Position numbers and translations under genes: made by a program. 60,284 nucleotides of DNA from Candidatus Omnitrophota bacterium. GTDB lineage: Bacteria; Omnitrophota; Gorgyraeia; Tantalellales; Tantalellaceae. The stretch covers positions 1 to 60,284 of the forward strand of contig JADGBR010000020.1 of NCBI GenBank assembly GCA_015231405.1, given 5' to 3'. Shown here piece after piece: positions 27,527 through 49,700 of this stretch (the stretch's first letter is position 1; every line of letters starts with the position of its first letter). The notes under the pieces are model-generated. The model was not told the DNA's origin. It ran no database searches and saw only the letters and a program-made list of their open reading frames with translations.

Positions 27527-27555
27527 TTGACTTTTTGTAGTGTTAATGTTAGTAT
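27527..27555 (+). promoter_or_regulatory. Promoter for the 3,010-aa gene
   Basis: TTGACT (27527-27532), 17-nt spacer, TAGTAT (27550-27555), 44 nt before the ATG, which is itself preceded by AGGAGAG. Confidence 0.65.
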
Positions 27556-27598
27556 AACTAAAATTTGAATATAGAATCGCAAAATTTCAGGAGAGTTT

Positions 27599-30500
27599 AT
27601 GAAAAAAATTATTTCTTTGCTGATAATATCCAGTTTTCTTCTTCAGAAAATCACCTTTGCCGATACCCTGGGGCAAGTAGGACCCGGGGGTGACAACCTC
27701 CAGGTCGGGTCGATGTTCAATCCTATCGGCGATCACGCGGTGATACAGGATACGCTGGTCAGAATGCTCCTTGAATACGCTAAAGGGGAAACATTAATAG
27801 ATAAATTTGAAGAGAGGCTTACTCTTAAGCCTTTTAGCGGCCTTCAGCCTGTACTTGATTTCAGCGGGAAATATTCTGAAGAAGGGGACGGAGCCGATGG
27901 AAAGTCCGATAGAAGGCTGATCGTGCCTTGTCATGTCATCGATACCGGGACGGGGGAATGTTACAGCACCGAAGCTGTTTTTGTTGACGGGGGTTTCAGT
28001 GAACTCAGGACGCCGAGGGCCATTAACATAGACGGTTTGGATGGGAACCGTTCGATAGTTCTGGAAAGATCGGCTGACGCATGGCGGGAACGGGCCATAA
28101 CAAGAGAAGAGCACTCCGTAATGAGAGCGGCTTTTTCAGGATTCAGGGATAAGGGATATGAGATCGGCGCTTCTGACGAAGTACTGGTCGATGTCAGGGA
28201 AAGCCTTAAGGCGCTGAGTAAGGAAGGGATCGCCGAGATCGTGAGCCCGCCCGGAGAAGCCGTGTATAGAGAGATCTCGAGGATAGCAAATGACCAGGGA
28301 GTCGTAAGCCTTCCCGGTAAGGAAAGTTTCGCCCTCGTAACTTATCCGGCAATCTATCAGGACGAAGTGACTTCTAAAAGGTCATATGAGCTTCTTATCC
28401 CACAGGAGTGTTTGGCTTATGTCCGGTATTTGAGGGCCGAAAGGCCGGAGCTTTACAAAGAGTGGCTTCTCCGACAGACGGCTCTCCTTTCGGCGGCCGC
28501 TTATCGCACGGATAAGAAGTACCCGGAGGCCATGGAGGCGCTCGCGGGTTATCCTATAAAGACTTTCATGGAAGCTTATAACGGGAAACGAGAGCTTTCT
28601 TCTGGTATTATCTGGAGATCCGGAGCCTGGGGGGTATCTTGCGATGGTAAAGAATACTATCCCGGAGAAAAACTTAGAGGAAAAGAATTGAGGGCGGCGC
28701 TTTTGACAAAAGCCCGATATTTCGCAGGCGAGAAATGCTCGAGAAGTCTCTGGGAAATGGTTAAAAAAGGCAGGGAAGAAGAGGAATCCCCCGATATACG
28801 GCCGAAGAGCACCGGACGCGGGGGCGCGACTGGAGAGTTGGCTAAATATCTCTTCCCCGAAGGGAAGGAGATACCGTACGACGATCTTGTGGCGGGCACC
28901 AGGTCAACGCTCGCGTTCATGAGCCTCTCGGACAGGAAACCCATTTTCAACGCCGCCATACTCGCGGGCGACGAATTGTTCGCCACTATCGACGTTCTAA
29001 AACCGGCCGGCGACGAAGGATGGGATATCATCGGCGTGACAAGTTCAACGAGCGCGAAGGAAGACTCGATAGCCGGGATAGCTTTCCAGCGTTACGTCGC
29101 GGAAAAAGCGGGCATAAAGATAAGGAACTCGTATGTCCTCCACATAAACAAAGATTACAGGCAGAAAGGCCAGATGGACCTCGCGGAGTATTTCATTATG
29201 GACGATGTCACCGAAAAAACCGGGGAGAGTATAGCCGGCGTCCGGGAAAAGGTCCCGCCTATGCTCGAGATCGTAAGGGCTGACAATTACAGCGCGGTAT
29301 CGCAGATAGGCTCGCATTGTTCCGATCCGGAAGTGTGTCCCCTGAAAGAAATATGCTGGGGGGCTCTCCCCGCGGGGAACGTTTACGAGCTTTATAGGGG
29401 CGGAAAAACATCAAAGAAACTGCATGAACAAGGTATATCCATGATCGCGGATATCCCGGATAATGTGAAGCTGACTTATCGCCAGGTAATACAAAGAGAT
29501 TGCGCTTTGTCCAAAGAGCCGCATATCGACCGCAAAAACCTGATAAAGTTCCTGAATACATTAGAGGGTCCGGTCAGCTACCTGGATTTCGAGACTTTCG
29601 CCGAGCCGGCGCCAAGGTTCAAAAATACGAACCCTTATCAAAGGATAGCGTTCCAGTTCTCGCTGCATGTGGCTGATAAAGGGAATGAGGTCGAACATTA
29701 CTCATACCTGGCCGAAGGCGCCGACGATCCCCGTCCTGGGTTCCTTGCCGCTCTTAAGGGCTACCTCGGAGACAAAGGAAGCATAGTTGTCTACAACAAA
29801 TCGTTCGAGCTATCCGTCTTGAAAGAGCTCTCGGAGGATTTTCCGGAATATAAGGAGTGGATAGAAAGCCTTACGCCCAGGGTGGTCGACCTTCTGGATC
29901 CTTTTCGCGAGTTCTACTACTATCACTCCGACCAGCACGGCAGCTGTTCGATAAAAAAAGTCCTTCCGGTACTGACGGGTGAGAGCTATCAGTCCCTCGA
30001 TATAGGGAAAGGCGACGTAGCCAGCGACTCTTTTGTAAGGGTTACTTATGGCGATGTGCCCGAGGAAGAGCGCTTGAAAGTTCGAGACGACCTCCTCGTA
30101 TATTGCGGACTCGACACCAGGGGCATGATATTGATCATGGATAAGCTTAAGGAAATAACGGGATACGACAATGTCTCCAATCTCGACAGGCATCCGACCG
30201 GAGACGTGGTGAGGGATCTCGATGAGAGCAAGGTGAGCCTTACGGGTATCACTCTCGGAAAGGGCGGGTATGAGGCCGCGCGTAAAGGAGATGGCGGCAT
30301 ATCAGGTGAAAAGATCCAGGCTATCGTGAGGCTCATGAATGACGCGGATAGTTTTAAACCGTCCGGGTTCATCGCTCGGAGCGTGTTATCTTTCAGGTAT
30401 TTTATTTACCGCTACTTATCCCGTTTGAGGTCGCCCCCAGAGATGGCTCTTTACAGGGACCTTTCCCCCAACGCCGCGCGTTACAAAATGCCTTCACATA

Positions 30501-33500
30501 ACAGGCGCCTTATCCTTTTCGACGAATATTTTATCGACTCCCTGCTGGAACTTAAAGACAGGGAACTGGCGTCATATCTCCTGCATGAAAGGCTGTCCCA
30601 CGAGCTTATGCATACGGGAATAAGATGGCCTTCCAGAATGCTCCGTGAAATAGAGGAGTTCTTTGTCATCCTGTTCTGCGATATAAGCAACTACGAGGGG
30701 CTTGTTACGGGTAAGGTCGGCGGGGAGAGCCTTAATCAAAGGATAGACCGGTTCTTTATAGATAGGGAAGATACCACTTCCCTGAGGCCTTCGGGATTCG
30801 CTTCAAACAATTATTACGGCGAGGCTACGGCGTTTCTCAGGAATGTCGCCGGCAAGCCTTTCATTGAAAAGATAAAGCGCACATGGGCGTTCGTCAGGGA
30901 GCGGTTCTCCGGGAGGGACGGTACGGCCGGGACATCCGAATATGTCAGGGCGGAGGAGGCCGGGGCTGAACCTGTCACGGGTATGTATGCCGAATTCACA
31001 CCGGCTTCCGCGATAGGGCTTCTCGACAGCACTCTTCTTACGCGTGAAGAATACCATGAAGGAATACATCTTCGCGCCGCTGTGGAGAATCTCGCGGTCG
31101 ATGCCGTCAAGTACGGTGCCGGAGGCATATGCGTTTACCCTGACCAGCTGGCATGGGTAAAGGGCCTTGTGAAAGGTAGCGGCATAAAGCTTTCCGCCGT
31201 CATTGCTTTTCCCGGAGGGTTGGGAGAAGAGAACGGCTATACGACCGAAAAAGCGCTCCGCGAGGCTAGAGTGGCCGTGGCCAACGGCGCGATGGAGCTT
31301 GACGTGGTCATCAATTATAAAGCCATTCTTGACGGCAGGGCCGAACAAACGGAGGAAGAGCTCAAGGCTTTTTCGAGAGGGGTGCTGCATGAATTCAGGG
31401 GCAGGATAAAGATCAAAGCTATACTAGAGACGGCCGCTCTGGGGTCTGAGGAAAATATAAGGCGCGCGGCCAGGATAGCGCTTCCGTATTCCGATTTTAT
31501 CAAAACATCCACCGGCAAACATGAAAAAGGCGGGGCCACTCTAACGGCTTCAAAATTCATTCTAGAGGAGATAAAGGAATACCATGCGAAGACCGGGTCG
31601 CTTGTGGGGCATAAGCCTTCCGGAGGCATTAAGGTCTGGGAAGACGAACAAAACCCCGATGCGGCGATGAAAAAATACCTTATTCTGGCAGAGTCCATAA
31701 TGGGTATGGAATATGCCAGGGATAAAAACCTTATGCGTATCGGCGCGGGTGGACTACTCGGGGATATGCTTAAAAGAAGCCCGCGCGTGTATCTTTGCGG
31801 CGCCATCGAATCGCTCGCGGATAAAGACGCCGGCGCGCTCTGGAGGCAACGGATAGCGCCTAAACTGCGAGAAACGGGCTTTATCCCTCTCGATCCTCTT
31901 TTGTCGGCGAGGAGCCCCGAGGACAGGAACGCGCTCCAGGCCAGGCACCGGCTGAAGCGTGAAGGGAATTGGCGCGAGCACGGAAGGATCATGGGCCGGG
32001 TCATAGAGGATGACCTGGAGATGGTCCAGGAGACCGGAAATACCGGGGGTTTCACCCTTGTCTACCTTGACGCCGAAGTGAACGCGTTCGGGACTTTTTG
32101 CGAAATGATGGAGTCATACGCGCGGGGCATACCCGTATACGTTGTCGCTCCGAACAACCCGCCGTCGGACCTCCATAACATGACCCTGCTTTTAGCTACA
32201 AGAGTTTTCCGGAGCTTCGAGGAATTCAACGAATTCGCTCGGAGCTCATATGATAAAGGGGAAAAGACAGAGGATAAGATCTTCGACGGTCTTATCCCCA
32301 AAGCGTTGTGGAATAAGAAGGTCGCCCCGATAACGCCCGAAAATGATCCCCGCGGCGCTCGCGGCCGGAGATTTTATGTCACTTCGCAGATGGAAACCCC
32401 TGTCGATTCCGGTGTAGGCACAAGGAAGAGCCTGGCCGATAAACTCAGAAAACTGGGCGCTGACGTAAGGGACCCCGGCGAGAGCTTCCATAGAGAAGGG
32501 CCTCTCGAGGGGAAATTATTAAAGCATTTAAAAAGGACAGGGGATTGGGAAAGGTTCAGGGAAGAGGGCTATAAGGTCATACGCCAGAACATGGCTTTGA
32601 TCACGAGCGCCTCCGGACAGGAACCCGAGGATCGCGGCGCCATGGTTGTCTTTGTGGACGAGGCGCAAAAACCTTCCGGTACCGCGATAGACATGTGGAA
32701 CGCTTATGTCCGTGGTATCCCCATATACCTTATACTCGATCCTGCCAAACCCGTAGCCGAATACAACAGCTGGATGATCAACATGGCTACCGTCGTATTC
32801 ACTTGCGAAGACGACCTCCTCATCTACCTGGAAAGATCCCCGATAAAACGAGCACTGCTAAAAGCCCGCAAATCCCTCTCGAACCTATTCATCCCGGCCT
32901 CGCGACAAATATCCAAAGAAAAATCTACTATCACGAACCACGAACCACGCCTCGCCGCCGTAGCCTTGGCGAAGGCGGGCACCACGCCTGCCCTCCGAAG
33001 CCTTGGCGAAGGAGGGAATCACGAGATATACTGGGACGCCATATCCCGGCGCATGGAACTGAAATACGACGGCATCGAGAGCCCCGAAAAATTCTTCAAG
33101 CGCGTCATAGATAACGGGATAAAGAAAATAGCCGTCCCGGCGGATAAGATCGCTGCGATAAAGGGACTGGTGGAAAAAAGAGAAGCCCTGACGGGCAGAA
33201 AGTCCTATATCAATATAACCGCCCTGGCCGGCAGCTCGAAAGAAATGAACGCGGAGAAGCTCGGTGTCGGAAAAGTGGAGGCGCCCCTTGACGTGTCGCT
33301 GTTCAGGAAAGGTAACATAAGCGGGTTCAGGGACGAGCTCGAAAAACTTTACTGGAAATCCGGAAAGAAGAAAAACCTTGTCGCGGCTATAGACCTTAGA
33401 GATTTCACAAAAAGCGAGATCCGTGGCCTCGCCGATTTCCTCATGGCCAATCTTCCCGGGAATTATGACAGGTTGAACATTAATCTGAAGAACTCTTCCC

Positions 33501-36500
33501 CGGAAGAAGCGGCCCTCCTCAAATCCATCCTGGGATGGAAATGCGGCTTGGTCATGGAAGGAGTAGACGGCTTTTCGTTCGCGCGGGAACTTATCGAGGC
33601 AGGTACGGACGTTTTAAGGGTGAGCGACCCCGGTCGGATATTATCGGAATACAGGGAATGGCAAAGTGCCGATCCCGCTAGAAAGGATATACGCGACGTG
33701 GAAAAGATATTCGAAGAGGAGCTTTCGTTCATTCACGACCCAAAAATACGGGCGTTCGCGCTCGAAGGACTGAAAATGATGCCGGATTATATTTGGGAAG
33801 TGCCTTCATCCTCTACGGGTAAATACCATCCCCAGGACGAGATATCCTTCGGAGGGCAGGTGCTGCATGTCCGGAGGGTGGCGCGTAACGCTTTAAGGAT
33901 AGCCGGCGCGTATGAGTTGCCCCAGCGGGGAACCGACATCATGGTCGCCGCGGCGCTCTTACACGACGCCGCCAAATACGGCCTTAACGATGACGAGTAC
34001 TACAACCTGGACGAGACCGACGGCGGGAAGCCCAGCAGGTGGGAACAATACAGGAAACATCCCCAGCTCGTAAGGGAACTGATAGGCCATTTAAAGAGTA
34101 GATATGCTTTTACCGATGAAGTCATCGGCCTCATAGAGACACATGAGGGAGTGTGGTCCAGCGAAGGCTACAAGCCCCGAAGCCTGGACGAGTGGTTACT
34201 GCATCTCGCAGATTACTCGGCAGGTAAAAGGTATTCGCTCGACCTCGGGGATTTCATCGCGTGTCACAAGGCGCTTATCGCCGCGGGCTGCGGCGTCGAA
34301 AGAGCGATGGTTATCACGCAGAAGGCCCAGGACGGCTCTTATGGGCTCCTCAAGGAACTGGAGAAGCCTACGGATATAGAGAAGAACCCCGAAAACATAG
34401 TGAAGATAAGGGAATTCAAACGCGCCATATACAGGAAAGGGCTGGAGCGGATATACGGGGAAGTCCTGGAAGCGGGCGATCCGGAAGAAGCTAAAAAAGA
34501 GGTTTCCGCGGTAGTATCCGCCTTTATTAAGAAATACAGGATAAAGGTTTACCTCGCGGGCTATATAGAGGCGGATTTCGGCGGGGCTGGGACCTGGCGC
34601 AATATGATGAAGCCGTATCTCGAGGATATGCTCGTCGAAGTCAGGGACCCGATGGATAAGGATTTCAATTCCGAGGACCTCGCCATGGAACAGAGAAAGA
34701 ACTGGCTCCGGGTAAGCGAGCTTTGGGACGATTTCCGGGAACAGCTCGGGGATATCATAGACGGAGACCTGGCGTGGGTAGTCGGCGGCAAAAAAGAGGA
34801 CAAAGGCGTGCAGATCGTTGTGGCGAATCTTGTCCCGAAAAAGCAGACCCAGTATCTTGACGCGGGCGTGCAGACTTACGGCACTCCCGACGAAATGAAA
34901 GAAGCTCGTAAACAGGGCGGGCGCGTGCTGATCTTCACGCCGAACGACAGGAAAGAACTTTATAATTTCGAATTGGGATTCGGGCATGATGTCTTCCATC
35001 AGCAGGCGGCGGTACTCGAATACATAAAGGAACACGCGGACGAACTAAGGGATTACGCGAATGACGACATACACGAAGGCACGCCGCTTGAGGACGCATA
35101 CTGGGTAAAAGGAATGCGCCCGGTGCCGGAAGGCGAAGACAAAAAAGGCATTAAAGGCAGGAAATTCTATATCAGCGTTCCGGTAGAGCCATCGGCGGAT
35201 ATGGGGGCAGGAGAGCGGGCCAGGATAAGGAAAGAGATAGAAAAGCGCGGGGGGCAAGTCATAGATCCGCTGGATGATCCTCTCGAGAACGACCGGCTCA
35301 CTAAACTCAGGCAGGAAGGGAGATGGCCGGAATTCGAGGCTTATTTCAAGGAGATATACAAACGAAATCTCGCGAAGATAAACGAGGCGGACGCTATGAT
35401 AGTGGCAGTGGATCCCTCTAAGCGATATGTAGAGACGACCACAGACACATGGCCGGCTTTTGTCCTGGGTAAACCCATTTACGTGATCTCGCCGACGTCG
35501 TGGAGAAAGCTGAGCGACTGGCTGACGGGCCTATATACAAAAAAATTCACGAATATCGGGAACCTTGTGACATATCTTACGACGTCAAAGGACCCGGAAA
35601 AGCCGGCTCTCGCGGATTTCGGGGAAAGGCTCGCTAATCTGAAAGAGATGGAAAAGAACGCCGCGAAGGCCGACGCGCCAGTGGCGGAGGAGCTGAACCT
35701 TCTCATAGTGAGGGGCATAACGAAGCTCCTCAATATCCAACGCGCCTATCGCGCGGATACGGACGAAGAGATAGCGATCGGGATCGAGTCGGCGGCGCGT
35801 TCGGCCGCCAGGCTGGATAAGGATAAACATAAGGACGCGATTGAAAAGCTCCGTGACGAATTTATCTGGTGGATAGAAAAAAAGAATGTTTTCAAACATG
35901 ATGAGTATTCCGTGCGGTCGAGGCGGATAAGAGCGGCGCTGGAAAGCGTGGGGTATGAGGGCCCCGGTGCGGCGCCGGGTTTTAAAAAGTCGCCGTATAT
36001 CAAAAGAGGGGATGTTCTTTTCAGAGACCTTACGGTTCTTTCCGAAAGGGCGCGGAATTTTGTCGAACTGGTGCTGTCCGCGAAAGTGACCGCTGATAAA
36101 CTGGTTTTCGCTTTCGACAATGGTATTGGCGGCGAGCATTCAAAGGACATAATTTCCGTAATATCCGCCATTGAGGAGCTTAAGAAAGAGCCCGAGTTCA
36201 AGTCTCTCCTGGAAAATGTCGTGATACTCGCGCCATCGAAGCCCGGGGCGTTGCCGCGTAAATTAAGGCAATATATGAAAGATAAAGACGCCGAAGTGTT
36301 TGTTTTTTCAAGGGAATCGTCGAGGAAAAAGTTTAGGGGGATCGAGAATAAAGTCCATATGAGCTACATAAGGGAAGAGGCCGATAGCGATATCTCGACC
36401 GACGCGCCGTACTACCCTCTTCTCGAGGTAGTGATAGTCTCGCTCGCCAGGCACCTTGACAGCTCAATCCTCGATATCGTGAACGAAAAGCTTAAAGGCA

Positions 36501-36631
36501 CGAATATCCGTTCGGTGGAAGAGGAAGGCGACGCGCTTATTTTCAACCTTTTACCGAACGCCGAATATTATCCGGCGGAGCAGCTGAGGGATATTTACAA
36601 CAGCCTGAAACGGTTCATAAAATCCGCATAG
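27599..36631 (+). CDS. Giant exported protein: DUF2779 nuclease, DeoC, NDT-like modules, HD domain
   Basis: The product is 3,010 aa with a signal peptide (about residues 1-21). Domains in order: residues about 370-590, a PD-(D/E)XK (Cas4/RecB-like) part with DVLK, GQMDLAEYF and clustered Cys574, Cys580, Cys586; 655-860, DUF2779 RNase H-like exonuclease (YLDFET, VVYNKSFE, YCGLDT); 1001-1005, HELMH; 1130-1380, a complete DeoC aldolase (Asp1235, Schiff-base Lys1302 in IKTSTGK, Lys1339 in HKPSGG); 1395-1545 and 1590-1760, two nucleoside 2-deoxyribosyltransferase-like (NDT) modules; 1810-2040, a second aldolase-like barrel lacking the lysines; 2085-2210, an HD domain (His2090, His2122-Asp2123, His2182, Asp2205); 2315-2460 and 2520-2660, two more NDT-like modules; then an unrecognised tail. 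DUF2779 and DeoC are confident, the NDT-like calls likely. A palindromic repeat is translated near residue 1780. The joint function, breakdown of deoxynucleotides, is inference. Confidence 0.82.
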   Translation: MKKIISLLIISSFLLQKITFADTLGQVGPGGDNLQVGSMFNPIGDHAVIQDTLVRMLLEYAKGETLIDKFEERLTLKPFSGLQPVLDFSGKYSEEGDGADGKSDRRLIVPCHVIDTGTGECYSTEAVFVDGGFSELRTPRAINIDGLDGNRSIVLERSADAWRERAITREEHSVMRAAFSGFRDKGYEIGASDEVLVDVRESLKALSKEGIAEIVSPPGEAVYREISRIANDQGVVSLPGKESFALVTYPAIYQDEVTSKRSYELLIPQECLAYVRYLRAERPELYKEWLLRQTALLSAAAYRTDKKYPEAMEALAGYPIKTFMEAYNGKRELSSGIIWRSGAWGVSCDGKEYYPGEKLRGKELRAALLTKARYFAGEKCSRSLWEMVKKGREEEESPDIRPKSTGRGGATGELAKYLFPEGKEIPYDDLVAGTRSTLAFMSLSDRKPIFNAAILAGDELFATIDVLKPAGDEGWDIIGVTSSTSAKEDSIAGIAFQRYVAEKAGIKIRNSYVLHINKDYRQKGQMDLAEYFIMDDVTEKTGESIAGVREKVPPMLEIVRADNYSAVSQIGSHCSDPEVCPLKEICWGALPAGNVYELYRGGKTSKKLHEQGISMIADIPDNVKLTYRQVIQRDCALSKEPHIDRKNLIKFLNTLEGPVSYLDFETFAEPAPRFKNTNPYQRIAFQFSLHVADKGNEVEHYSYLAEGADDPRPGFLAALKGYLGDKGSIVVYNKSFELSVLKELSEDFPEYKEWIESLTPRVVDLLDPFREFYYYHSDQHGSCSIKKVLPVLTGESYQSLDIGKGDVASDSFVRVTYGDVPEEERLKVRDDLLVYCGLDTRGMILIMDKLKEITGYDNVSNLDRHPTGDVVRDLDESKVSLTGITLGKGGYEAARKGDGGISGEKIQAIVRLMNDADSFKPSGFIARSVLSFRYFIYRYLSRLRSPPEMALYRDLSPNAARYKMPSHNRRLILFDEYFIDSLLELKDRELASYLLHERLSHELMHTGIRWPSRMLREIEEFFVILFCDISNYEGLVTGKVGGESLNQRIDRFFIDREDTTSLRPSGFASNNYYGEATAFLRNVAGKPFIEKIKRTWAFVRERFSGRDGTAGTSEYVRAEEAGAEPVTGMYAEFTPASAIGLLDSTLLTREEYHEGIHLRAAVENLAVDAVKYGAGGICVYPDQLAWVKGLVKGSGIKLSAVIAFPGGLGEENGYTTEKALREARVAVANGAMELDVVINYKAILDGRAEQTEEELKAFSRGVLHEFRGRIKIKAILETAALGSEENIRRAARIALPYSDFIKTSTGKHEKGGATLTASKFILEEIKEYHAKTGSLVGHKPSGGIKVWEDEQNPDAAMKKYLILAESIMGMEYARDKNLMRIGAGGLLGDMLKRSPRVYLCGAIESLADKDAGALWRQRIAPKLRETGFIPLDPLLSARSPEDRNALQARHRLKREGNWREHGRIMGRVIEDDLEMVQETGNTGGFTLVYLDAEVNAFGTFCEMMESYARGIPVYVVAPNNPPSDLHNMTLLLATRVFRSFEEFNEFARSSYDKGEKTEDKIFDGLIPKALWNKKVAPITPENDPRGARGRRFYVTSQMETPVDSGVGTRKSLADKLRKLGADVRDPGESFHREGPLEGKLLKHLKRTGDWERFREEGYKVIRQNMALITSASGQEPEDRGAMVVFVDEAQKPSGTAIDMWNAYVRGIPIYLILDPAKPVAEYNSWMINMATVVFTCEDDLLIYLERSPIKRALLKARKSLSNLFIPASRQISKEKSTITNHEPRLAAVALAKAGTTPALRSLGEGGNHEIYWDAISRRMELKYDGIESPEKFFKRVIDNGIKKIAVPADKIAAIKGLVEKREALTGRKSYINITALAGSSKEMNAEKLGVGKVEAPLDVSLFRKGNISGFRDELEKLYWKSGKKKNLVAAIDLRDFTKSEIRGLADFLMANLPGNYDRLNINLKNSSPEEAALLKSILGWKCGLVMEGVDGFSFARELIEAGTDVLRVSDPGRILSEYREWQSADPARKDIRDVEKIFEEELSFIHDPKIRAFALEGLKMMPDYIWEVPSSSTGKYHPQDEISFGGQVLHVRRVARNALRIAGAYELPQRGTDIMVAAALLHDAAKYGLNDDEYYNLDETDGGKPSRWEQYRKHPQLVRELIGHLKSRYAFTDEVIGLIETHEGVWSSEGYKPRSLDEWLLHLADYSAGKRYSLDLGDFIACHKALIAAGCGVERAMVITQKAQDGSYGLLKELEKPTDIEKNPENIVKIREFKRAIYRKGLERIYGEVLEAGDPEEAKKEVSAVVSAFIKKYRIKVYLAGYIEADFGGAGTWRNMMKPYLEDMLVEVRDPMDKDFNSEDLAMEQRKNWLRVSELWDDFREQLGDIIDGDLAWVVGGKKEDKGVQIVVANLVPKKQTQYLDAGVQTYGTPDEMKEARKQGGRVLIFTPNDRKELYNFELGFGHDVFHQQAAVLEYIKEHADELRDYANDDIHEGTPLEDAYWVKGMRPVPEGEDKKGIKGRKFYISVPVEPSADMGAGERARIRKEIEKRGGQVIDPLDDPLENDRLTKLRQEGRWPEFEAYFKEIYKRNLAKINEADAMIVAVDPSKRYVETTTDTWPAFVLGKPIYVISPTSWRKLSDWLTGLYTKKFTNIGNLVTYLTTSKDPEKPALADFGERLANLKEMEKNAAKADAPVAEELNLLIVRGITKLLNIQRAYRADTDEEIAIGIESAARSAARLDKDKHKDAIEKLRDEFIWWIEKKNVFKHDEYSVRSRRIRAALESVGYEGPGAAPGFKKSPYIKRGDVLFRDLTVLSERARNFVELVLSAKVTADKLVFAFDNGIGGEHSKDIISVISAIEELKKEPEFKSLLENVVILAPSKPGALPRKLRQYMKDKDAEVFVFSRESSRKKFRGIENKVHMSYIREEADSDISTDAPYYPLLEVVIVSLARHLDSSILDIVNEKLKGTNIRSVEEEGDALIFNLLPNAEYYPAEQLRDIYNSLKRFIKSA
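32930..33015 (+). repeat. Family A palindromic repeat translated in frame in the 3,010-aa gene
   Basis: CACGAACCACGCCT, GCCTTGGCGAAGGCGGG, TGCCCTCCGAAGCC and TTGGCGAAGGAGGG follow one another here, and the frame stays open. The words match the copies at 1555-1620 and, reversed, at 3662-3730. The stretch encodes an Ala/Gly-rich insert between the second NDT-like module and the degenerate aldolase barrel, a linker position. Confidence 0.75.
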
Positions 36632-39330: not shown

Positions 39331-39389
39331 AAGTTTGATATTGTAGCTGGTTGTGTAAAAAAGCGGATAGTTCGTAGTCTGATCTATTG

Positions 39390-41756
39390 ATGGATATCAA
39401 GACCGGAAAGGGATTTACTTTGTTGGAACTTTTAGTCGCCATGGTAATGTTCTCCATGGTCGTCCTGGCGGCATCTTCGCTTTACTCAAATATGCTTAAG
39501 CTCCAGAAAATAAGCGTGAGGAGCAGTTTCAATCCCCAGAAGATCCAGGCTGTCCTGAACAAAATGGAAAAGGACGTGAATAATTCCGCCTGGATAAAGG
39601 TAGTGAGCTCAAACGAGATAGACCTTTACACCCAGAGCGAGGACCTGATCAAAAAGTACATATACGACCCGTCGGCCGGAACCCTTTCATTCGCTGACAG
39701 TTCCGGGACTACGGCCCTTCTTTTGAGCCATATCTCCTTGTTCACCGATACCGGTGTTTTTTTTACCGCTGTCGGGGATCATAAACCATGCCCTGACAGT
39801 TCGTCCGCCCTCAGGTATAGGACCGTGAAAGTCAGTTTCTGGGATTCTACCGACGACACCAGGTTCGAGGACGCGGACTGTTTTGTCATTAAGGACCGTT
39901 ATTTCACCGCCAAACAGGACTGGGATATAACTTATGTCGACGCGGACTCTGCCGCCGGGACGGTTGGGCATATCGGGACGATGACTAACCCGTCAACAGC
40001 GTTCACGGACACTATCAATAACCTCGAGTCCATTACGGGTGAGGAGTGCGTGTATTTCGTTGACGGGTCTTATTCACTTTCCGGCACCGTGAGCGTCCTC
40101 TCCGAAGGGGAGAGGAATATCCTTACGGGTTCCAACGCCTCGGTGACGTTCGCCTCGGGAACGACCCTGGTCCTGGAGAAAGCGACGGATCTTTATTTCA
40201 GGGGGGACGCGACGTTCTCGACGTATTTATCCATATACGGCACTGAGGAGACAAGGACGGAAACAATAGGCGGCGTGGCTTATACCGGGACCGCATACAG
40301 GAAGGACTGGAACGTTTATTTCGGGAATAAGGGTAACTATCAGTCCTCCGATTACGACTACTTCTATTTTAATTACTGCTATTTTTACGGACCGGAGCAC
40401 GGGATATTGATAAACTCCCCGAGGTTCCCGAGAACGTCGACCAATCCCTTCTTCGTGTATATCTATTACAGCGAAGCTAGCTGCGCGAAGAACTCGATGT
40501 TCGATATCACGAACCCGTTTATGTGCTACGTCTACAGCAATATATTTAAGTACAGCCAGGAGTACATGATAAAGTACACCTCCGACCAGGATACCAGGCT
40601 TTACTCCAGCTACGGCAATTATATATATTTCTACGCGACCGATAACGAGTTCTATGACGGAAGAAAAGCTCTCGATGTGTATACGGATACGCTGTCAACG
40701 GTAACGGCTGAGATGTATATCCAGTCGAACGATTTTAACAAAACGAACGGCGCCGATTCGCCGCTTCTCGGCGGGGAGACGGACAACTCGTATCTGGCGC
40801 GGCTTAGGATATACGGCGGGAACGCCGGCCAGACGACCATCTCCGGCAATTCGGTCAAAGGTTATCCGAACCTGGATAAAAGCGACGGGGGATATGTGAG
40901 GGCTTTCTGGATAGAACATGTCGATGAGGCCGATCCGGGGTACATCAAAAAGATATCGATATTCGATAACACCGTGTACGGGAATTATTACATGAGGAAT
41001 TACGCGGTTTCGGATACGAGCGCGGATCATAAGGATAACAGGTTATTTACCGACGGAGTGTTGCTCGGGGATGCTGATGAGACAAAAACAGAGGATGTCA
41101 AAGTCTCCAGCCTCAAGATATACGGCAATATCTTCTGCGATATCTCTTCCGCCAATCTGGATAGCGGGAAGAACGCGGCGTTGTACCTGGACGGCGTGTA
41201 CATGGCGCCATATAGCTATGAGGACGGCTGGTCGACCCAGACAATAGTCGAACCCTCTTACATATACGGCAACTATTTCGTTAACAACTGCGAGGGGATA
41301 CATATCGAGCGGCCGAATGACACGGAGCTTTCCGACTCGTATATCTACCACAACATTTTGTGCCGTAAAGGCGATGTTACGGTGAACGACGGGAAGAATT
41401 ACCAGGGTATACGGTTCTACAGTAATACTCTCGACGGCGTCAACCTTTTCGAGAATTACGCCCCTGAAAAATGGTTCATTTACAGCGTCATAATCTGGGG
41501 CGCGGACGCCGGCCTGGATACAGCTCTCGAGCCATACACATACTATTCCGATATAATGAGCATGGCCGCGCCGATATCGCCTAATATCAGGCAGGACCCG
41601 ATGTTCGCCGGCACGGCCGCCTATGATTACCGTTTGCTCCCGGGGTCGCCCTGTGACATGACCGGATATAACTATAGCGAAGACATGGGAGCGTACAATA
41701 ACTGGAACGGCGCGTCGGATGACACCGAGAACCCGGACGCCAAGCCCTATCTTTAA
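39390..41756 (+). CDS. GspJ-like pseudopilin fused to a beta-helix domain
   Basis: The product is 788 aa from the ATG at 39390; the TTG just before it is less likely. The N-terminus MDIKTGKG followed by FTLLELLVAM is a type III signal for prepilin peptidase, with Glu at +5. The sequence is closest to GspJ, normally about 200 aa. After a pilin-like first 190 residues comes a long region with repeating strands (DNEFYDG, IYGNIF, IYGNYFVNN, IYHNILC, FYSNTLDG), typical of right-handed parallel beta-helices as in pectate lyase-like folds. It is the first gene of the secretion operon. A tip pseudopilin carrying a polysaccharide-binding or -cutting helix would be unusual. No catalytic residues can be named. 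Confidence 0.82.
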   Translation: MDIKTGKGFTLLELLVAMVMFSMVVLAASSLYSNMLKLQKISVRSSFNPQKIQAVLNKMEKDVNNSAWIKVVSSNEIDLYTQSEDLIKKYIYDPSAGTLSFADSSGTTALLLSHISLFTDTGVFFTAVGDHKPCPDSSSALRYRTVKVSFWDSTDDTRFEDADCFVIKDRYFTAKQDWDITYVDADSAAGTVGHIGTMTNPSTAFTDTINNLESITGEECVYFVDGSYSLSGTVSVLSEGERNILTGSNASVTFASGTTLVLEKATDLYFRGDATFSTYLSIYGTEETRTETIGGVAYTGTAYRKDWNVYFGNKGNYQSSDYDYFYFNYCYFYGPEHGILINSPRFPRTSTNPFFVYIYYSEASCAKNSMFDITNPFMCYVYSNIFKYSQEYMIKYTSDQDTRLYSSYGNYIYFYATDNEFYDGRKALDVYTDTLSTVTAEMYIQSNDFNKTNGADSPLLGGETDNSYLARLRIYGGNAGQTTISGNSVKGYPNLDKSDGGYVRAFWIEHVDEADPGYIKKISIFDNTVYGNYYMRNYAVSDTSADHKDNRLFTDGVLLGDADETKTEDVKVSSLKIYGNIFCDISSANLDSGKNAALYLDGVYMAPYSYEDGWSTQTIVEPSYIYGNYFVNNCEGIHIERPNDTELSDSYIYHNILCRKGDVTVNDGKNYQGIRFYSNTLDGVNLFENYAPEKWFIYSVIIWGADAGLDTALEPYTYYSDIMSMAAPISPNIRQDPMFAGTAAYDYRLLPGSPCDMTGYNYSEDMGAYNNWNGASDDTENPDAKPYL

Positions 41757-41763
41757 GGAAAAC

Positions 41764-42255
41764 ATGGCGGGAACAACGAAAATGGATCTAGAGGGGAAGA
41801 AAGGCATGGCGCTCATGTCGGTAATGCTTTTTATGGTATCGCTCCTGGCGATCACCGGGGTGTACATGGCGTCCATAGTCTATAGGAACGAGGTCACGAC
41901 GGGGTACTGCTATTCCGCCCAGCTCCATTATCTGGCCGAGAGCGGGATGATCTACTTTCGGGGCAAATACTCGCTGGACCAGTCCAGAGAGCTTTATCCC
42001 TCGATGCCGGGTTCGACGGAGATGCTGAAGGACCTCACTCCAGCCGGAGATAAGACCACGCTCACTTACAGGATAGTTTCGGGAGACAGCCTGACGATAA
42101 CCGCGTCCGCCGACTATAAGGGGAAGAGGAAGACCTTGAAATGCACGCTGGACACCGACGACGATCTTGTCGATATGTACCTGGCGGAATCCGCGTACGA
42201 CCCGCCGGACCTCAAGGTCTCATTAAGGGAACTGCCATGCATAAAATGGGAATAA
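41764..42255 (+). CDS. GspK/PilX-like pseudopilin
   Basis: I use the ATG at 41764, preceded by AAGGA with a 5-nt gap. The 163-aa product has a charged leader ending KKG before MALMSVMLFMVSLLAI. It lacks Glu at +5, as GspK proteins do, and contains the LAESG motif seen in PilX/GspK N-terminal regions. It is shorter than most GspK (about 300 aa). It lies between the J-like and I-like genes, fitting a tip complex of J, I and K. It overlaps the next gene by 19 nt. Confidence 0.72.
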   Translation: MAGTTKMDLEGKKGMALMSVMLFMVSLLAITGVYMASIVYRNEVTTGYCYSAQLHYLAESGMIYFRGKYSLDQSRELYPSMPGSTEMLKDLTPAGDKTTLTYRIVSGDSLTITASADYKGKRKTLKCTLDTDDDLVDMYLAESAYDPPDLKVSLRELPCIKWE

Positions 42256-42737
42256 AGTTATTTTTTGGATGCTCCCGGGGAATGACGCTCATGGAGGTGC
42301 TGGTGGCGATGATACTCATCTCCATCCTGAGCCTTGAAGTCTCTACCGCAGTGGTTTACGAGCGGAAATTCTCGCATGCCATAGAGCATAAGGTGATGGC
42401 GCTCAATCTGGCCCAGAGCGCGGCCGAAAAGCTCATCATCCTCGCAGAGGAATATGTGAACGGTACCATATCCTCGACCGAGAACGCGCTCAAGGTCGGC
42501 ACGCACGAGAATATTTCCACCGCCGAATGGTACACGCCAGGCATATGCGAACTGCCGTCGGTCTGGATGAAAGAAGAACTGGAAGGCACCATCGAATATA
42601 AAGTGACGGACCTTGACCACGGCTCAGACCTCCATTCCCTGAAGGTGGAGCTTAAGGTGAAGTGGAAAGAGAAACTGATGAACGATCTGGAAAAGGAACT
42701 CGAACTGGACTTTCTGGCGTGTACGTATTATGTGTAG
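42237..42737 (+). CDS. GspI/PilV-like pseudopilin
   Basis: The ATG at 42237 follows AAGGGA with 6-nt spacing and lies inside the end of the K-like gene; this gives 166 aa. The leader ends SRG before MTLMEVLVAMILISIL, with Glu at +5, as in GspI and PilV. The rest has alternating strands of the usual minor pseudopilin size. It should be processed by a prepilin peptidase, which is not encoded in this window. Confidence 0.78.
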   Translation: MHKMGIKLFFGCSRGMTLMEVLVAMILISILSLEVSTAVVYERKFSHAIEHKVMALNLAQSAAEKLIILAEEYVNGTISSTENALKVGTHENISTAEWYTPGICELPSVWMKEELEGTIEYKVTDLDHGSDLHSLKVELKVKWKEKLMNDLEKELELDFLACTYYV

Positions 42738-42754
42738 GGTCGGCCTTTACCTGT

Positions 42755-42796
42755 CCTCCGAAGCTGAATGATGTAAAATGATTCAGCGAAAGAGGA
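42755..42796 (+). other. Hairpin between pseudopilin genes and the rest of the operon
   Basis: GCTGAAT (42763-42769) pairs with ATTCAGC (42781-42787), and outer CCTC pairs with GAGG. It lies in a 122-nt gap inside an otherwise tight operon. It could be an RNA processing site or a partial terminator that sets gene dosage. No U-tract follows. Confidence 0.4.
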
Positions 42797-42859
42797 TGGC
42801 CGCCATTAACCGTTTGTCAGGGCCGCGATTCACCGCGGCCGATATGGAGGGAAAAACAT

Positions 42860-43585
42860 ATGAGTAAATGGAGCATATCGATGACAACACTCTCGGCTCT
42901 TCTTATCTCAACGACGTTGCTGTTCTGGCGGTCCAACATGGATCTAGCCGAAAAATGCCGCCTCGTGGAACGGACGAGGGACGCCCTCACCGATGAGCTG
43001 AACACTCTCATAAGGGAAAAAGACCTGCTTTCGGGCCAGATAGCTACTCTCAAGGCCGATCATGCTGATCTGTCGAGCGCGGTGGACATGTACCTTGACC
43101 ATACGAAAACGATGAATATAGAGATGGACGGGTTCAACCGGAACCTGCACGAGCTGGATCTGAGGCTTGTCAAAAAGGACATGGAGCTCCGGGAGCTCGG
43201 CGGAGCGATAAAGAAATACGAATCGAGGCTTACCCAATGCGATAAGGAGATCAGCGGCCTTAAGGAAAAGCTCGAAGAGGCCGGAAAAAAAGCCGCCGGA
43301 GGTTCGGGAGTCCTTGAACTCGCGCCGATAGAGGTCCCGGTGGAAGGGGCCTCTTCCCTGGCGAACGGTAGCATCCTCGAGGTTAACACGGCCCAGGATT
43401 TTATCGTTATAGACGCCGGACGAGCCCAGGGGCTTAAAGAGGGAGACAGCCTCATGGTCCAAAGAGGCGCGGAGCTTCTCGGGAGGGTAGTTCTGGAGAA
43501 GGTCGATATCGATCTATCGACCGCGAGGCCGTTGTATAAATCGTTGAGGGATATAGTCCGCAAGGGCGATATGGTGGTTCTGTAA
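42860..43585 (+). CDS. Membrane-anchored coiled-coil protein of the secretion operon
   Basis: The product is 241 aa with one N-terminal membrane helix (about residues 6-22), a long coiled coil (about 28-150), a short Gly/Ala linker and a C-terminal beta-rich part (from about 175) with VIDAGRAQGLKEGD and LGRVVLEKV. This last pattern resembles small SH3-like barrels. The layout recalls MreC or periplasmic linker proteins. It is not a standard type II secretion gene, but its position between the pseudopilins and GspL suggests a structural part of the machine, perhaps a spacer between the inner membrane and the secretin. Its function is not known. Confidence 0.62.
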   Translation: MSKWSISMTTLSALLISTTLLFWRSNMDLAEKCRLVERTRDALTDELNTLIREKDLLSGQIATLKADHADLSSAVDMYLDHTKTMNIEMDGFNRNLHELDLRLVKKDMELRELGGAIKKYESRLTQCDKEISGLKEKLEEAGKKAAGGSGVLELAPIEVPVEGASSLANGSILEVNTAQDFIVIDAGRAQGLKEGDSLMVQRGAELLGRVVLEKVDIDLSTARPLYKSLRDIVRKGDMVVL

Positions 43586-43598
43586 CGAACATAAAGTT

Positions 43599-45197
43599 AT
43601 GAAGAGAGAAAAACTTAAAACCCTCTTTTTAAAGGCCGCGGATTACCTGAAAAGGTCTTACCGCGGGGCCGTGGTCTATGTGAGCGACGATTACGTGGAC
43701 CTGGCCGTGGCGGAGCCTTCTTTCTCCGGGATGAAGATAACCCGCCTCGAGAGGATACCCTTCGGGATGAATTCGAGGAACCTTTCCGAGGAAGAGCTTT
43801 TCTCGTTCCTGGGCACGCTCCTCAATGAGTTCTTCGAGAACGAGGGGAAGGCCCTCCTCCGGATCGCGACGAACATAAGGAACGATTATTTCATAGTGCG
43901 CCGTTTTTCCTTTCCCGAAGTTCCCGACACGGAGGCCGAGAAAGTCGCCGTTTTTGAGGCCCAGAAATACCTGCCTTGCGCCCTTGGGAGCCTTTCCTAC
44001 AGGATAAGGAAACTGGACAGGAATAAAGGGACCCAGTCCGTGGTCCTTGCCGGAGCGGAGAACAAGGACATAGCGAAAATAATAAAGGTATTCGGGGAGA
44101 GGGGGCTTTTCGCGTCAGTTATCGAGGCTGAGCCTCTTCTGGTCGCCAGGGGGATGGAACTTTCCGAGACGATACGCCCGAGCAGCAATTATCTTTCCAT
44201 ACATTTCGAGCCGATCAGTAAGGTCGTGATAACGGCGATGAGGGGCTCGCAGCCTTTTTTCATGAGGGAGATAATACTTGCCAAGGACAATGTGAGCGCG
44301 AAGGGCATGAGGGACCTCAAGGAGTATAGCCTCGAACTCAGGGACGTGTGGGGGGCCATCGAGATGGACGTGGCGAATACTTACGAGTTCCTGAAAAAAG
44401 ATACGGGCAAGGACGTGGAAAAGATATTCATATCGGGTTTCGCGCGCTCTGACGGTGACGAAGAGGTGCTCTCGAGATTCCAGAAGCCTGTAAAGAGGAT
44501 AGACCTGAAAAAGGTGAAAGGGGTTTCCGATGAGGACAAGGACAGGTTCATCCCGGCTATAGCGCTTCTCTACGACACTTTCAATACGCCGCTTTTCAAC
44601 CTTTCGTTCCCCGCCACTTCGTATAACGACCCCTGGACCTACAAGCCGGTCGCCGTAATGGGGGTGTGGCTCGCTTCCATCATCCTCGTCGCGCATCTGG
44701 GTCTGGGCTTTTACAACGGGGCTATAATCCGCGAAACGGCCGGGATGAACTCCGCGAGCGACGGCTTCAGGCTCATCCCCGGAATATCGGCCAGCAGAGT
44801 TTCCAAAAAGGCCGTGGAGGACATGCGCGACGCCAGAAAAAAAACGGCGTCGTTCCTAAGCGAGACTTTCGCCGGTAAGTATTTTCTTGCGGAGAAAATA
44901 TCCAGGCTCAGCCCGAATATGTCAGGGGCCATGTGGATAGGAGGCGTATCCTTTTCTGTGGATATGATAAAGGGGAAGACCGAAGTGGAGCTTATCTTTG
45001 CCGGGAACATATTTACCCCCCGGGAGAAAGACATAGAGCAGTTAAACGATTTCGTGGGCCGCCTGAAGAGCGACCCTAAGTTCATGGCGGGCTTTAAGTC
45101 CATAAGGTTGTCTTCCGTCAAGAAGGAAAAGGCGGTAGGGGATAAGGCCATATGGAGCTTTCAGCTTATTTTGGGGACAGGTAACACGGTTAAGTGA
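43599..45197 (+). CDS. GspL-like (PilM/PilN-type) inner-membrane platform protein
   Basis: The protein is 532 aa. Residues about 20-340 resemble the actin-like cytoplasmic domain of PilM and GspL. A single membrane helix follows at about 350-372 and then a periplasmic region of about 150 residues with a coiled coil and a ferredoxin-like end. GspL is the fused equivalent of PilM plus PilN, so this order points to type II secretion rather than type IV pili. It links the ATPase GspE to the inner-membrane ring. It starts 13 nt after the coiled-coil gene. Confidence 0.75.
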   Translation: MKREKLKTLFLKAADYLKRSYRGAVVYVSDDYVDLAVAEPSFSGMKITRLERIPFGMNSRNLSEEELFSFLGTLLNEFFENEGKALLRIATNIRNDYFIVRRFSFPEVPDTEAEKVAVFEAQKYLPCALGSLSYRIRKLDRNKGTQSVVLAGAENKDIAKIIKVFGERGLFASVIEAEPLLVARGMELSETIRPSSNYLSIHFEPISKVVITAMRGSQPFFMREIILAKDNVSAKGMRDLKEYSLELRDVWGAIEMDVANTYEFLKKDTGKDVEKIFISGFARSDGDEEVLSRFQKPVKRIDLKKVKGVSDEDKDRFIPAIALLYDTFNTPLFNLSFPATSYNDPWTYKPVAVMGVWLASIILVAHLGLGFYNGAIIRETAGMNSASDGFRLIPGISASRVSKKAVEDMRDARKKTASFLSETFAGKYFLAEKISRLSPNMSGAMWIGGVSFSVDMIKGKTEVELIFAGNIFTPREKDIEQLNDFVGRLKSDPKFMAGFKSIRLSSVKKEKAVGDKAIWSFQLILGTGNTVK

Positions 45198-45210
45198 CGA
45201 GGGGCGCAAA

Positions 45211-45846
45211 ATGATAGATGTTCTGCAGTTGAACGTGAAGGATATAGGCCTTCTCCTTAAGGATAAATTGAAGGCGGCTTACATATTCACGTTCGCGGTC
45301 ATCTTTTTCGCCGGGCTATTTCTCCTGACCATCGTCGATTCCGGGAAGATAAATATGTCCAGGCAGAAGCTCAAGGAAGCGGGGGTCATTTATAAGCTGT
45401 CCAAGGAAACGTCGGATCTTAACGCTTATATCGATAAATTCAACGTCCGTTTCCTGGTCAAGGAGAACGTAATATCGATGATGGAATATGTCCTCGGCTT
45501 CACTAAGGGAAAGAAGATGAACATCAAGCAGATGACCCCCGGGAACGAGGAGATATTCTCGCGCTATCTTGTGGAAAGGCTTCTGGTGGACGGGACGGCG
45601 TCTTACGACGACCTGTGGGTCTTTATCGAAGAGCTCGAGAATTCCGATAAATTCCTCGTCGTCGAGAAAATGGAAGTGAAGGCAGTCGAGGAAAGTTACG
45701 CGTCGATCTCCAAGTTCATTCCTTACGCCAGGGAGAACGCTGAGCTTACTCCCGAAGAGGACCTGGCAAGAAAGGCCGAGATGGCGAGGCTTAAGCCGTT
45801 GCTGAATTTCAGTCTGGTCATAAAGTTCATGAACATGGGGCAATAA
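45211..45846 (+). CDS. GspM/PilO-like inner-membrane protein
   Basis: The 211-aa protein has a short cytoplasmic tail, one membrane helix (about residues 23-45), a coiled-coil stretch and a periplasmic ferredoxin-like region ending in LLNFSLVIKFMN. GspM and PilO have this layout and pair with GspL/PilN. Position after the L-like gene supports the call. Primary sequence is weakly conserved in this family, so the name rests mainly on layout and order. Its stop is immediately followed by the next start. Confidence 0.68.
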   Translation: MIDVLQLNVKDIGLLLKDKLKAAYIFTFAVIFFAGLFLLTIVDSGKINMSRQKLKEAGVIYKLSKETSDLNAYIDKFNVRFLVKENVISMMEYVLGFTKGKKMNIKQMTPGNEEIFSRYLVERLLVDGTASYDDLWVFIEELENSDKFLVVEKMEVKAVEESYASISKFIPYARENAELTPEEDLARKAEMARLKPLLNFSLVIKFMNMGQ

Positions 45847-46305
45847 ATGCGGATGAAGCTGGTAATTTTTATAATTATGGTTATACTTAATGTTAATAAT
45901 CAGTCGAAAGATTGTTTTTCGGAGGAGAAGGTCCCTTCTCCGGCCTTTACGAGCAGGGACGTTAAGATAGGCGATGCGGTATACAGGGACCTGGCAGCCG
46001 AAAAGGGTGAAAAGTTCACCGGGGATAAATACCGTAACCCCTTCAGGAAGCCGGTGGAGCTCATAGTCGAGCCTGAAAAAAAATCCGTGAAAAAAGAGGA
46101 GCCGAAGTCCGAAGCGGAGGTCGTACAGGTCAAGCCCGAGCTTGAGGGCATAGTGTGGTCAAACGGCAAGGATTACGCCATACTTAACGGCGAGGTCGTG
46201 GGGGAAGGCGACAAGACGAAGTACGGTGAAGTAACGGCCATAAGCGAGTACATGGTAAAGATCAGGGACCAGAGCGGTAACGAGATAAAAATACTTCGTA
46301 AGTGA
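45847..46305 (+). CDS. GspC/PilP-like periplasmic connector
   Basis: The 152-aa protein has an N-terminal hydrophobic helix, a Lys/Glu/Pro-rich linker (about residues 75-100) and a small beta domain with LEGIVWSNGKDYAILNG and EVTAISEYMVKI. This is the homology-region layout of PilP and GspC, which connect the inner-membrane platform to the secretin N-domains. The secretin gene follows after 3 nt. The family is expected from order and fold pattern; exact identity as C or P is uncertain. Confidence 0.7.
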   Translation: MRMKLVIFIIMVILNVNNQSKDCFSEEKVPSPAFTSRDVKIGDAVYRDLAAEKGEKFTGDKYRNPFRKPVELIVEPEKKSVKKEEPKSEAEVVQVKPELEGIVWSNGKDYAILNGEVVGEGDKTKYGEVTAISEYMVKIRDQSGNEIKILRK

Positions 46306-46308
46306 ATT

Positions 46309-47985
46309 ATGACGAGATACGCGTGCGGGAAAAAAATATTTTACGCTTTGTCCCTCCTTGCTGGATTGCTGTTTCTGGCATGGGGTGGTGCCCGGGCCTC
46401 CGGCCAGGATTTTGCCGCCGACAAGGCGGATAAGATAAGTATGGATTTTGAGAATGTTTCGCTAAAGAACGTACTTAAGATCTTTTCCAGGCAGACCGGG
46501 ATAAATTTTATCGCCTCAAATATCATCGAGAATAAGATGGTGACGATATATTTTAAGGACGTTTCGTTCGAAGAAGCACTTAATTCCATACTCTCCTCGA
46601 ATAAACTATCCTACCAGAAGAGGGGTGAAAAAACATATCTCATAATACAAGCCCCGGACAGGAAGTTGGGCCTAGTCACCCGCATTTACAAGCTTAAATA
46701 TCTCCAGGTCTATGATATAACCGATGCCGAAGGGAACACGTCGGAAGCGTCTCCGTCCCAAAGCACCGGGGGCGGCGGCGGGTTGGTGTCCGGAAAAGGC
46801 GGCGGAGGAGGCGGGGGCGGCGGAATGGGTGATCAATCTCAGGGTGGGATGGCCGGCCTTTCGAACGCGGTTACGGAAGGGATCAATAACGCCGCCTCGA
46901 GCGTCATTGAGGGATCCGGCGGAGGCGGCGGAAAGTCCGGCGGGGAAGGCATACTAAAAATATTGCAGAGCCTTATGTCTTCGAGCGGACAGATACTGAC
47001 CGACAGAAGGTCCAACAGCCTTGTTATAACGGATGTCTCGGACGTTTTCGAGCCGATAGAAAAAGTGATCCATGATCTCGATGTTCCGCCTATCCAGGTG
47101 ATGATACAGGCCGAAATAATCGAGACCACGACGGACGCGCTGAAAAGGATAGGGATAGAATACGGTTCGGAAACGAAGACTTTAGGGGCCACTTTTGCCG
47201 ATCAGGCGACGTCGGTCGGATATCCTTACACCGAAAATTTCATTAAAGACACTTTCGGGACCAGCCTCCTGGATTCCGGCACTTTTACTTACGGGACTCT
47301 TACCCAGGACGAGGTCGCCGTGGTGATAAAACTTCTCATGACGGACAGCAATACAAAATATCTCTCAAAACCCAGGATAATGACGATCAATAACGAACCC
47401 GCGGAGGTCAATACTTCCGCGAAGACGGCCGTCGGGGTCACTCAGACGACCGTGAGCGGCAATAACGGGAACGTCCTTTCCCAGGCGGAAAGATACGATA
47501 CGGGCGTAACCCTCAAGGTCGTGCCGAACGTTAACGAGAACGGCGACATCTTCATGTACATAGAGCCTTCCATTTCAAGGGCCCAGACATCCAGTTTCTC
47601 GAACGACTACATGGACCCGCTGAAAAGGAGCTCGACGTCAACCGTCATGATAAAGGAAGGTGATTCCGTAGTTATAGCCGGGCTCATACAGACCAACAAG
47701 ATAGAGACGAAGCGGAAAGTCCCGTTCCTGGGCGATATCCCTTTTCTCGGCCAGGCGTTCAAGTCCGACTATAACAAGGTAGAGGAGACGGAATTAATAA
47801 TTTTCGTCACGCCCTATATCGTCAAAAAAGGCGAGGACCGTTATGTTACCCCCAGGGGCGCGTCCCTTAGGGATGAGGTCATGGAAAAGACCCTGATGGA
47901 ATATAGGAATAAAAAGAAAAGATCCGCGAAGGAAAAGGACCATGTCGGACCCAAGGCTGAAAAAACTGGGGGAAATACTCCTTGA
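46309..47985 (+). CDS. Type II secretion secretin (GspD-like)
   Basis: The 558-aa protein has a signal peptide and then an N0/N1-like region (ISMDFENVSLKNVLKIFS, residues about 43-115). A Gly-rich insert (about 145-215) precedes DRRSNSLVITD, an N-domain hallmark, and the secretin core follows with VPFLGDIPFLGQAF and ELIIFVTPYIV near the end. It forms the outer-membrane channel. It is shorter than typical GspD (about 650 aa) and has fewer N-domains. Its last 44 nt overlap the GspE-like gene. Confidence 0.9.
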   Translation: MTRYACGKKIFYALSLLAGLLFLAWGGARASGQDFAADKADKISMDFENVSLKNVLKIFSRQTGINFIASNIIENKMVTIYFKDVSFEEALNSILSSNKLSYQKRGEKTYLIIQAPDRKLGLVTRIYKLKYLQVYDITDAEGNTSEASPSQSTGGGGGLVSGKGGGGGGGGGMGDQSQGGMAGLSNAVTEGINNAASSVIEGSGGGGGKSGGEGILKILQSLMSSSGQILTDRRSNSLVITDVSDVFEPIEKVIHDLDVPPIQVMIQAEIIETTTDALKRIGIEYGSETKTLGATFADQATSVGYPYTENFIKDTFGTSLLDSGTFTYGTLTQDEVAVVIKLLMTDSNTKYLSKPRIMTINNEPAEVNTSAKTAVGVTQTTVSGNNGNVLSQAERYDTGVTLKVVPNVNENGDIFMYIEPSISRAQTSSFSNDYMDPLKRSSTSTVMIKEGDSVVIAGLIQTNKIETKRKVPFLGDIPFLGQAFKSDYNKVEETELIIFVTPYIVKKGEDRYVTPRGASLRDEVMEKTLMEYRNKKKRSAKEKDHVGPKAEKTGGNTP

Positions 47986-49636: not shown

Positions 49637-49640
49637 CGGC

Positions 49641-49700
49641 CGTAGGGCGTGGGACGTGGTACGTGGGACGTCCAAGGTCCTACATCCCACGTCCTACGTT
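49641..49700. repeat. Family B intergenic repeat, copy 2
   Basis: GTAGGGCGTGGGACGTGG and GTACGTGGGACGT are mirrored by CCTACATCCCACGTCCTACG. It lies between the E-like and F-like genes inside the operon and is probably transcribed as a hairpin. Confidence 0.75.

Follow-up and report, generated by a model that had tools for sequence, protein, structure and literature searches.

We identified a chain of 3,010 amino acids, encoded by one open reading frame (ORF), that combines a predicted export signal, a set of enzyme domains pointing to deoxynucleotide breakdown, and a C-terminal domain (CTD) shared with other large Omnitrophota ORFs. The core of the chain is conserved and is a real unit, and its functional reading as an exported chain of such enzymes is plausible. 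The ORF lies in a 60,284-nucleotide stretch of DNA, which we call the window, from a Candidatus Omnitrophota genome of 3.66 Mb. The features of the chain and the secretion cluster described below are on the + strand.

A single long ORF with a predicted export signal

The ORF (27599-36631; 9,033 bp) is a single frame that runs to a stop codon at 36629-36631. Codon-position GC contents of 0.56, 0.39 and 0.61 indicate a three-base periodicity along the ORF. The longest chance open frame in 20 Markov-1 sequences of 60 kb was 266 codons, compared to the 3,010 residues found here. A Shine-Dalgarno sequence (AGGAG, 27589..27593) is followed 5 nt further on by the ATG. There is also a promoter-like site, TTGACT-17-TAGTAT with TG preceding the second hexamer (27527..27555), that is a consensus match only; 18 such matches occur in the region versus 9.8 expected in shuffled sequences. 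By inspection of the sequence, residues 1-21 (MKKIISLLIISSFLLQKITFA followed by D; 27599..27661) form a predicted Sec-type signal peptide, and residues 3-22 are the sole transmembrane-like segment of the chain. The claim, made in an earlier note on this DNA, that there is one exported-type chain of 3,010 residues is supported by the single periodic ORF, the Shine-Dalgarno sequence and the predicted signal peptide.

A type II secretion/type IV pilus cluster (pseudopilin, secretin, GspE/PilB with an MshEN domain, and GspF; 39387..50931) begins 2.8 kb downstream of the ORF and is a candidate export route for the chain. Directly upstream is an EamA transporter gene (26599-27483) with a weak match to triose-phosphate transporters. 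Both transporter types belong to the DMT superfamily, so the match implies no specificity.

DeoC and HD domains retain their catalytic residues

The DeoC aldolase domain (30971..31780) matched TIGR00126 (E 4e-33) and the deoxyribose-phosphate aldolases (DERA) in the PDB (E 7e-22). Its catalytic residues D1235, K1302 and K1339 are intact and align to 1JCL, where they are the counterparts of E. coli D102, K167 and K201, the Asp/Lys/Lys set of class I DERA. The scores, 114.7 bits with the whole protein and 120.3 bits in a six-frame search, were close to the NCBIfam equivalog cut-off of 117.3 bits. Known DeoC enzymes are separate cytosolic proteins, whereas this one is a domain behind a signal peptide. 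The giant-chain copy was the only DeoC (TIGR00126) detected in the host genome and 38 relatives (1/39 genomes), which argues against its being a duplicated housekeeping enzyme.

The HD phosphohydrolase domain (33614..34498; H2090, H2122, D2123, H2154, H2182, D2205) matched PF01966 (E 6e-10; 39.8 bits versus a gathering score of 22). The metal residues of the H..HD..D pattern are all present, as the earlier note had indicated for HD and for DeoC when it called both intact. Its nearest relatives are SPO1-like phage phosphohydrolases (gp32.6, phrog_5889), with 30-32% identity by tblastn. The phage protein shares all of the HD residues and the motif P-x-S-S/T-x-G-x-YH; it is a stand-alone protein, in contrast to the HD domain of the chain, which is one among several.

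The segment preceding the HD domain (32894..33613) is barrel-like. It had been taken for a degenerate aldolase, an assignment that we could not sustain: although in register, the comparison to DeoC gave an hhalign E of 0.33. The linker between N2 and this segment carries, within the coding sequence and in frame, a palindromic repeat, CCGAAGCCTTGGCGAAGGAGGG, in two copies (32958-33016). Genome-wide the repeat is present in 47 copies versus none for a reversed control. Its in-frame placement is similar to that of the palindromic elements of Rickettsia.

Four related modules resemble nucleoside deoxyribosyltransferases

Two pairs of modules flank the barrel-like and HD segments. N1 (31781..32317) and N2 (32318..32893) have Glu1502 and Asp1698, respectively, at the nucleophile position, and N3 (34499..35128) and N4 (35129..35758) have Glu2432 and Asp2616. 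The modules are mutually homologous (hhalign probability >94% for most pairs, with N3-N4 taken alone weaker) and make up one family arranged as two Glu/Asp pairs.

The relationship to nucleoside deoxyribosyltransferases (NDT) is more tenuous. PF15891 scored 24.8 bits on N3 versus a gathering score of 30, and PF05014 scored 20.8 on N4 versus 28.8. N1 and N2 matched no family when searched alone, and hhalign against 1F8X gave at most 27%. As yardsticks we used human DNPH1 and L. leichmannii NDT, whose sequences are essentially identical to their PDB entries (4P5E, 1F8X). The modules resemble these proteins in an N-terminal strand motif, in a G-T-x-x-E motif that has Glu in N1 and N3 but Asp in N2 and N4, and in the sub-threshold Pfam matches; they differ in falling below all cut-offs, in a long helical insertion, and in being present as four copies in Glu/Asp pairs. 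An AlphaFold2 model of N1 and N2 (pLDDT 43) was too poor to judge the fold. A PDB profile search with the modules gave TLR TIR domains only, at E 0.5-1, which we attribute to chance. Of the earlier proposal of four NDT-like modules in two pairs, the pairing and mutual homology hold, but NDT membership lies below the Pfam cut-offs, and we call the modules NDT-like only.

The N-terminal part contains one intact nuclease domain

Residues 152-333 (28052..28597) form a shared domain with 30-35% matches in genomes G006 and G018 and on another contig (C3) of the host genome. This is followed by a region resembling DUF2779 proteins, which the earlier note had described as a Cas4-like/DUF2779 nuclease. 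The DUF2779 (UU173-like) part of that description was confirmed. The RNase H-like DEDD exonuclease domain (29519..30178) matched PF11074 (E 1.4e-40; 138.9 bits over residues 661-784, versus a gathering score of 23.3) and PF13482 (E 1.7e-4). Its motifs, LDFET (662), YNKSFE and YCGLDT (835), are complete and agree with those of stand-alone homologues. The region matched at 36-41% entire stand-alone proteins of ~500 amino acids in relatives, one of them in the host genome.

In contrast, the Cas4-like PD-(D/E)XK core (28697..29518), defined by alignment with five stand-alone homologues and a copy on contig C33 of the host genome, has DIIGVTSS (residues 476-483) where the stand-alone homologues mostly have D[IL]IEVKS. 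Glycine and threonine thus replace the E and K of the D...(D/E)xK active site. Because ExK is replaced, this core is probably inactive. Its cysteine residues are retained.

The segment between the exonuclease and DeoC (30179..30970) contains HELMH (residue 1001). We considered a protease, but no Pfam or PHROG family matched, and the suggestion was dropped.

The block from DeoC to N4 is conserved in a distant genome

We found DeoC, N1, N2, the barrel-like segment, HD, N3 and N4 (residues ~1133-2758) in the same order in G094, a distant Omnitrophota genome of the same class but a different family, with 44-46% identity. The counterpart of residues 1133-1914 closes a 10,590-aa ORF on one contig (C49), and that of residues 1931-2758 opens an 8,420-aa ORF on a second contig (C59). 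Both ORFs reach the contig ends exactly at the break, with ~16 residues missing between them. Most likely they form one ORF of ~19,000 amino acids, and the homologue extends over >57 kb across the two contigs. The G094 block retains the catalytic residues, including those of DeoC and HD, and has the same Glu/Asp alternation. Because the arrangement is collinear and catalytically intact in another family, the linkage from DeoC to N4 is not a chance fusion. Linkage in relatives, which the earlier note had proposed as a check on itself, is therefore seen in G094, where the block is also preceded by a nuclease.

That nuclease, of the PD-(D/E)XK type with its motif intact, belongs to a different Pfam family, so nuclease and block seem to have been paired separately. 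Immediately before the G094 DeoC there is a different HE..H segment, which is insufficient evidence of homology to the HELMH segment. The two G094 ORFs (loci L033/L034 and L031/L032) also encode PFK, PPDK, methyltransferase, GGDEF, PHP, GH94, metallo-beta-lactamase and response-regulator domains.

Searches for the NDT-pair module covered 384 genomes of the class and a sample of 384 from the phylum, two sets that overlap, and each gave 2 genomes with the module. There were no full-length homologues of the chain in 147 genomes. Scans with short peptide patterns, for which absence is weak evidence, detected no relative of the DeoC/NDT region in collections of genome contigs or viral contigs, and none of the HD-N3-N4 alignment in viral contigs. 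By tblastn against phages and plasmids, the matches listed were to single domains only (HD in phages, DeoC on plasmids).

A C-terminal domain shared by large Omnitrophota ORFs

The last ~200 residues (36005..36631) form the CTD, which is common to dozens of large ORFs with quite different cargo enzymes. In most strong matches it reaches to a few residues before the stop codon, and the family ends in LKRxLKAA. Most genomes of the host's family have the CTD, in as many as eight copies each, and it extends to a few other families. The named relatives are Omnitrophota metagenome-assembled genomes, including Candidatus Tantalella remota. The domain had no significant Pfam relative, and a structural model (pLDDT 68, pTM 0.70) had no PDB match at E <= 1e-3; the model suggests an alpha/beta fold with modest confidence. 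CTD-sharing ORFs with visible starts usually have signal peptides, with N-termini resembling that of the chain. Their middles vary, and include alpha-amylase with M23, AAA with VWA, and radical SAM domains, among others. The CTD family appears to be undescribed and the deoxynucleotide cassette appears likewise new, whereas giant Omnitrophota ORFs are already known.

Other large ORFs were seen nearby and elsewhere in the genome. In the window, an ORF of 1,206 aa that is open at its 5' end (3-3623) has a tail that resembles a diverged CTD by eye, an ORF of 2,065 aa (7289-13486) has a signal-peptide-like start and TPR, and a GH5 cellulase-family protein with DUF5060 (16567-18813) also has a signal-peptide-like start. 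Another contig of the host genome (C14, L036) carries a NAD synthase/CN-hydrolase ORF (893 aa), a signal-peptide ORF (619 aa) and a CTD-ended radical SAM/PHP ORF (2,373 aa). The last two are in different frames ~36 nt apart, possibly owing to a frameshift or a sequencing error within one gene.

Discussion

We propose that the ORF encodes a Sec-exported multi-enzyme chain that dismantles DNA or deoxynucleotides outside the cytoplasm, a tentative reading to which we give somewhat less than an even chance. We infer all of the activities, their order, and the location and purpose of the chain from sequence. The DEDD exonuclease would produce 5'-dNMPs, from which the Glu modules N1 and N3, acting like DNPH1, would strip the base to leave deoxyribose-5-phosphate. 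DeoC would split this product into acetaldehyde and glyceraldehyde-3-phosphate. The HD domain might be a side branch that trims tri- or monophosphates (from dNTP or dNMP), the Asp modules N2 and N4 might complete or regulate intramolecular dimers, and the CTD might anchor or sort the chain on the envelope. The outcome would be bases, phosphate and small carbon compounds freed from environmental or prey DNA.

The substrate of DeoC is deoxyribose-5-phosphate. The earlier note had phosphate removed before the base; we rejected this order because it yields free deoxyribose, which is not the DeoC substrate, and a kinase would be needed. Most of what the note observed is right, but its reaction order and two of its parts, the Cas4-like nuclease and the degenerate aldolase, call for correction. 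The NDT family comprises hydrolases as well as transferases, and members of the DNPH1 type cut the base directly off dNMP to give deoxyribose-5-phosphate (PMC10483697; PMC12884076). Exonuclease, N modules and DeoC, in that order, would be chemically consistent and fit better than phosphate first.

Support for an enzymatic role comes from the catalytic residues, which are intact in comparison to 1JCL, the phage HD protein and the DUF2779 homologues. The signal peptides on CTD-sharing ORFs count in favor of export. Several observations count against the proposal. The NDT assignment is sub-threshold, with N1 and N2 matchless on their own, and the Cas4-like core is probably dead. Glyceraldehyde-3-phosphate and acetaldehyde would be hard to retrieve outside the cell, and of the 384 class genomes no more than 2 had the block from DeoC to N4. 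Sister ORFs carry cytosolic-looking domains (radical SAM, AAA helicase, PFK, PPDK), indicating that export of metabolic domains would not be specific to feeding on DNA. A more elaborate form of the proposal, possible but doubtful, is that the chain is a conserved, exported and covalently linked catabolic pathway that takes DNA down to fragments of two and three carbons, and that it is one of the cargoes of a so far undescribed secretion-domain family in Omnitrophota. Such a family, with a signal peptide, swappable enzyme cargo and the CTD, could conceivably place whole metabolic modules outside the cytoplasm, although we have similar doubts about this.

It is unlikely that the chain is instead a weapon, delivered to or into neighboring prey or host cells to deplete their nucleotide pools, with food secondary. 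Omnitrophota are proposed predators or epibionts with giant proteins linked to predation (PMC10066038), the cargo targets DNA precursors, the HD domain resembles phage proteins, and the secretion/pilus cluster lies close to the ORF. However, we recognized no delivery apparatus, immunity gene or toxin-family domain, a Sec-signal chain of 3,010 residues would be an unusual delivered effector, and DeoC is no obvious toxin. Still less likely is a surface or coat protein that arose by gene fusion, its captured enzyme folds acting as bulk or as binding modules whose activity matters little. Such a protein would fit the sister proteins, which are alike at their ends only with widely different middles, the apparent decay of the Cas4-like core and the barrel-like segment, and the coat-forming role proposed for the giant protein of V. 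archaeovorus (PMC10066038). Bulk modules under relaxed constraint would lose their active sites, yet those of DeoC and HD are complete here and are kept in G094, where identity is just ~45%, and the DEDD motifs agree with those of stand-alone enzymes. Periplasmic or membrane-tethered salvage or cleaning of the cell's own nucleotide pool, neither feeding nor attack, is improbable: the HD, DNPH1-like and DeoC chemistry is like nucleotide sanitation and there is no second DeoC in the host genome, but pool sanitation is cytosolic whereas the signal peptide directs outward.

The proposed exported multi-enzyme chain has partial counterparts among known systems. Giant Omnitrophota ORFs (Seymour et al. 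2023, PMC10066038), including one for a 39,678-aa protein of V. archaeovorus, come from the same phylum, are very large and are proposed to be extracellular, and the G094 homologue is in their size class. The chain ORF, at 9,033 bp, is below the 20-kb limit used to define them. The published examples have little domain annotation and often contain many transmembrane helices and adhesin domains; in contrast, our chain has one transmembrane-like segment, and most of its domains are enzymes with a single metabolic theme. A Ca. Menyafoubacter protein of ~6,000 aa (PMC12057145), also from the PVC superphylum, has a Sec signal and catabolic domains, but it acts on polysaccharides, with no nucleotide enzymes described. 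The DNA-foraging loci of Ca. Izemoplasmatales (PMC8289736) similarly combine an extracellular nuclease and a phosphohydrolase for DNA use, but in separate genes, with transporters and no exported aldolase described. In known DNA foragers the secreted enzymes are nucleases and nucleotidases, and the sugar is degraded after import (PMC8289736), so that exporting an aldolase would break with this pattern.

What giant Omnitrophota proteins do has been named as an open question (PMC10066038). The chain described here is a protein of this type with readable, testable biochemistry and a core conserved in a second lineage, and the shared CTD makes a family of large Omnitrophota proteins searchable. 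If the chain is active outside the cytoplasm, it would represent an unusual shift of sugar-phosphate breakdown from the cytosol onto one polypeptide.
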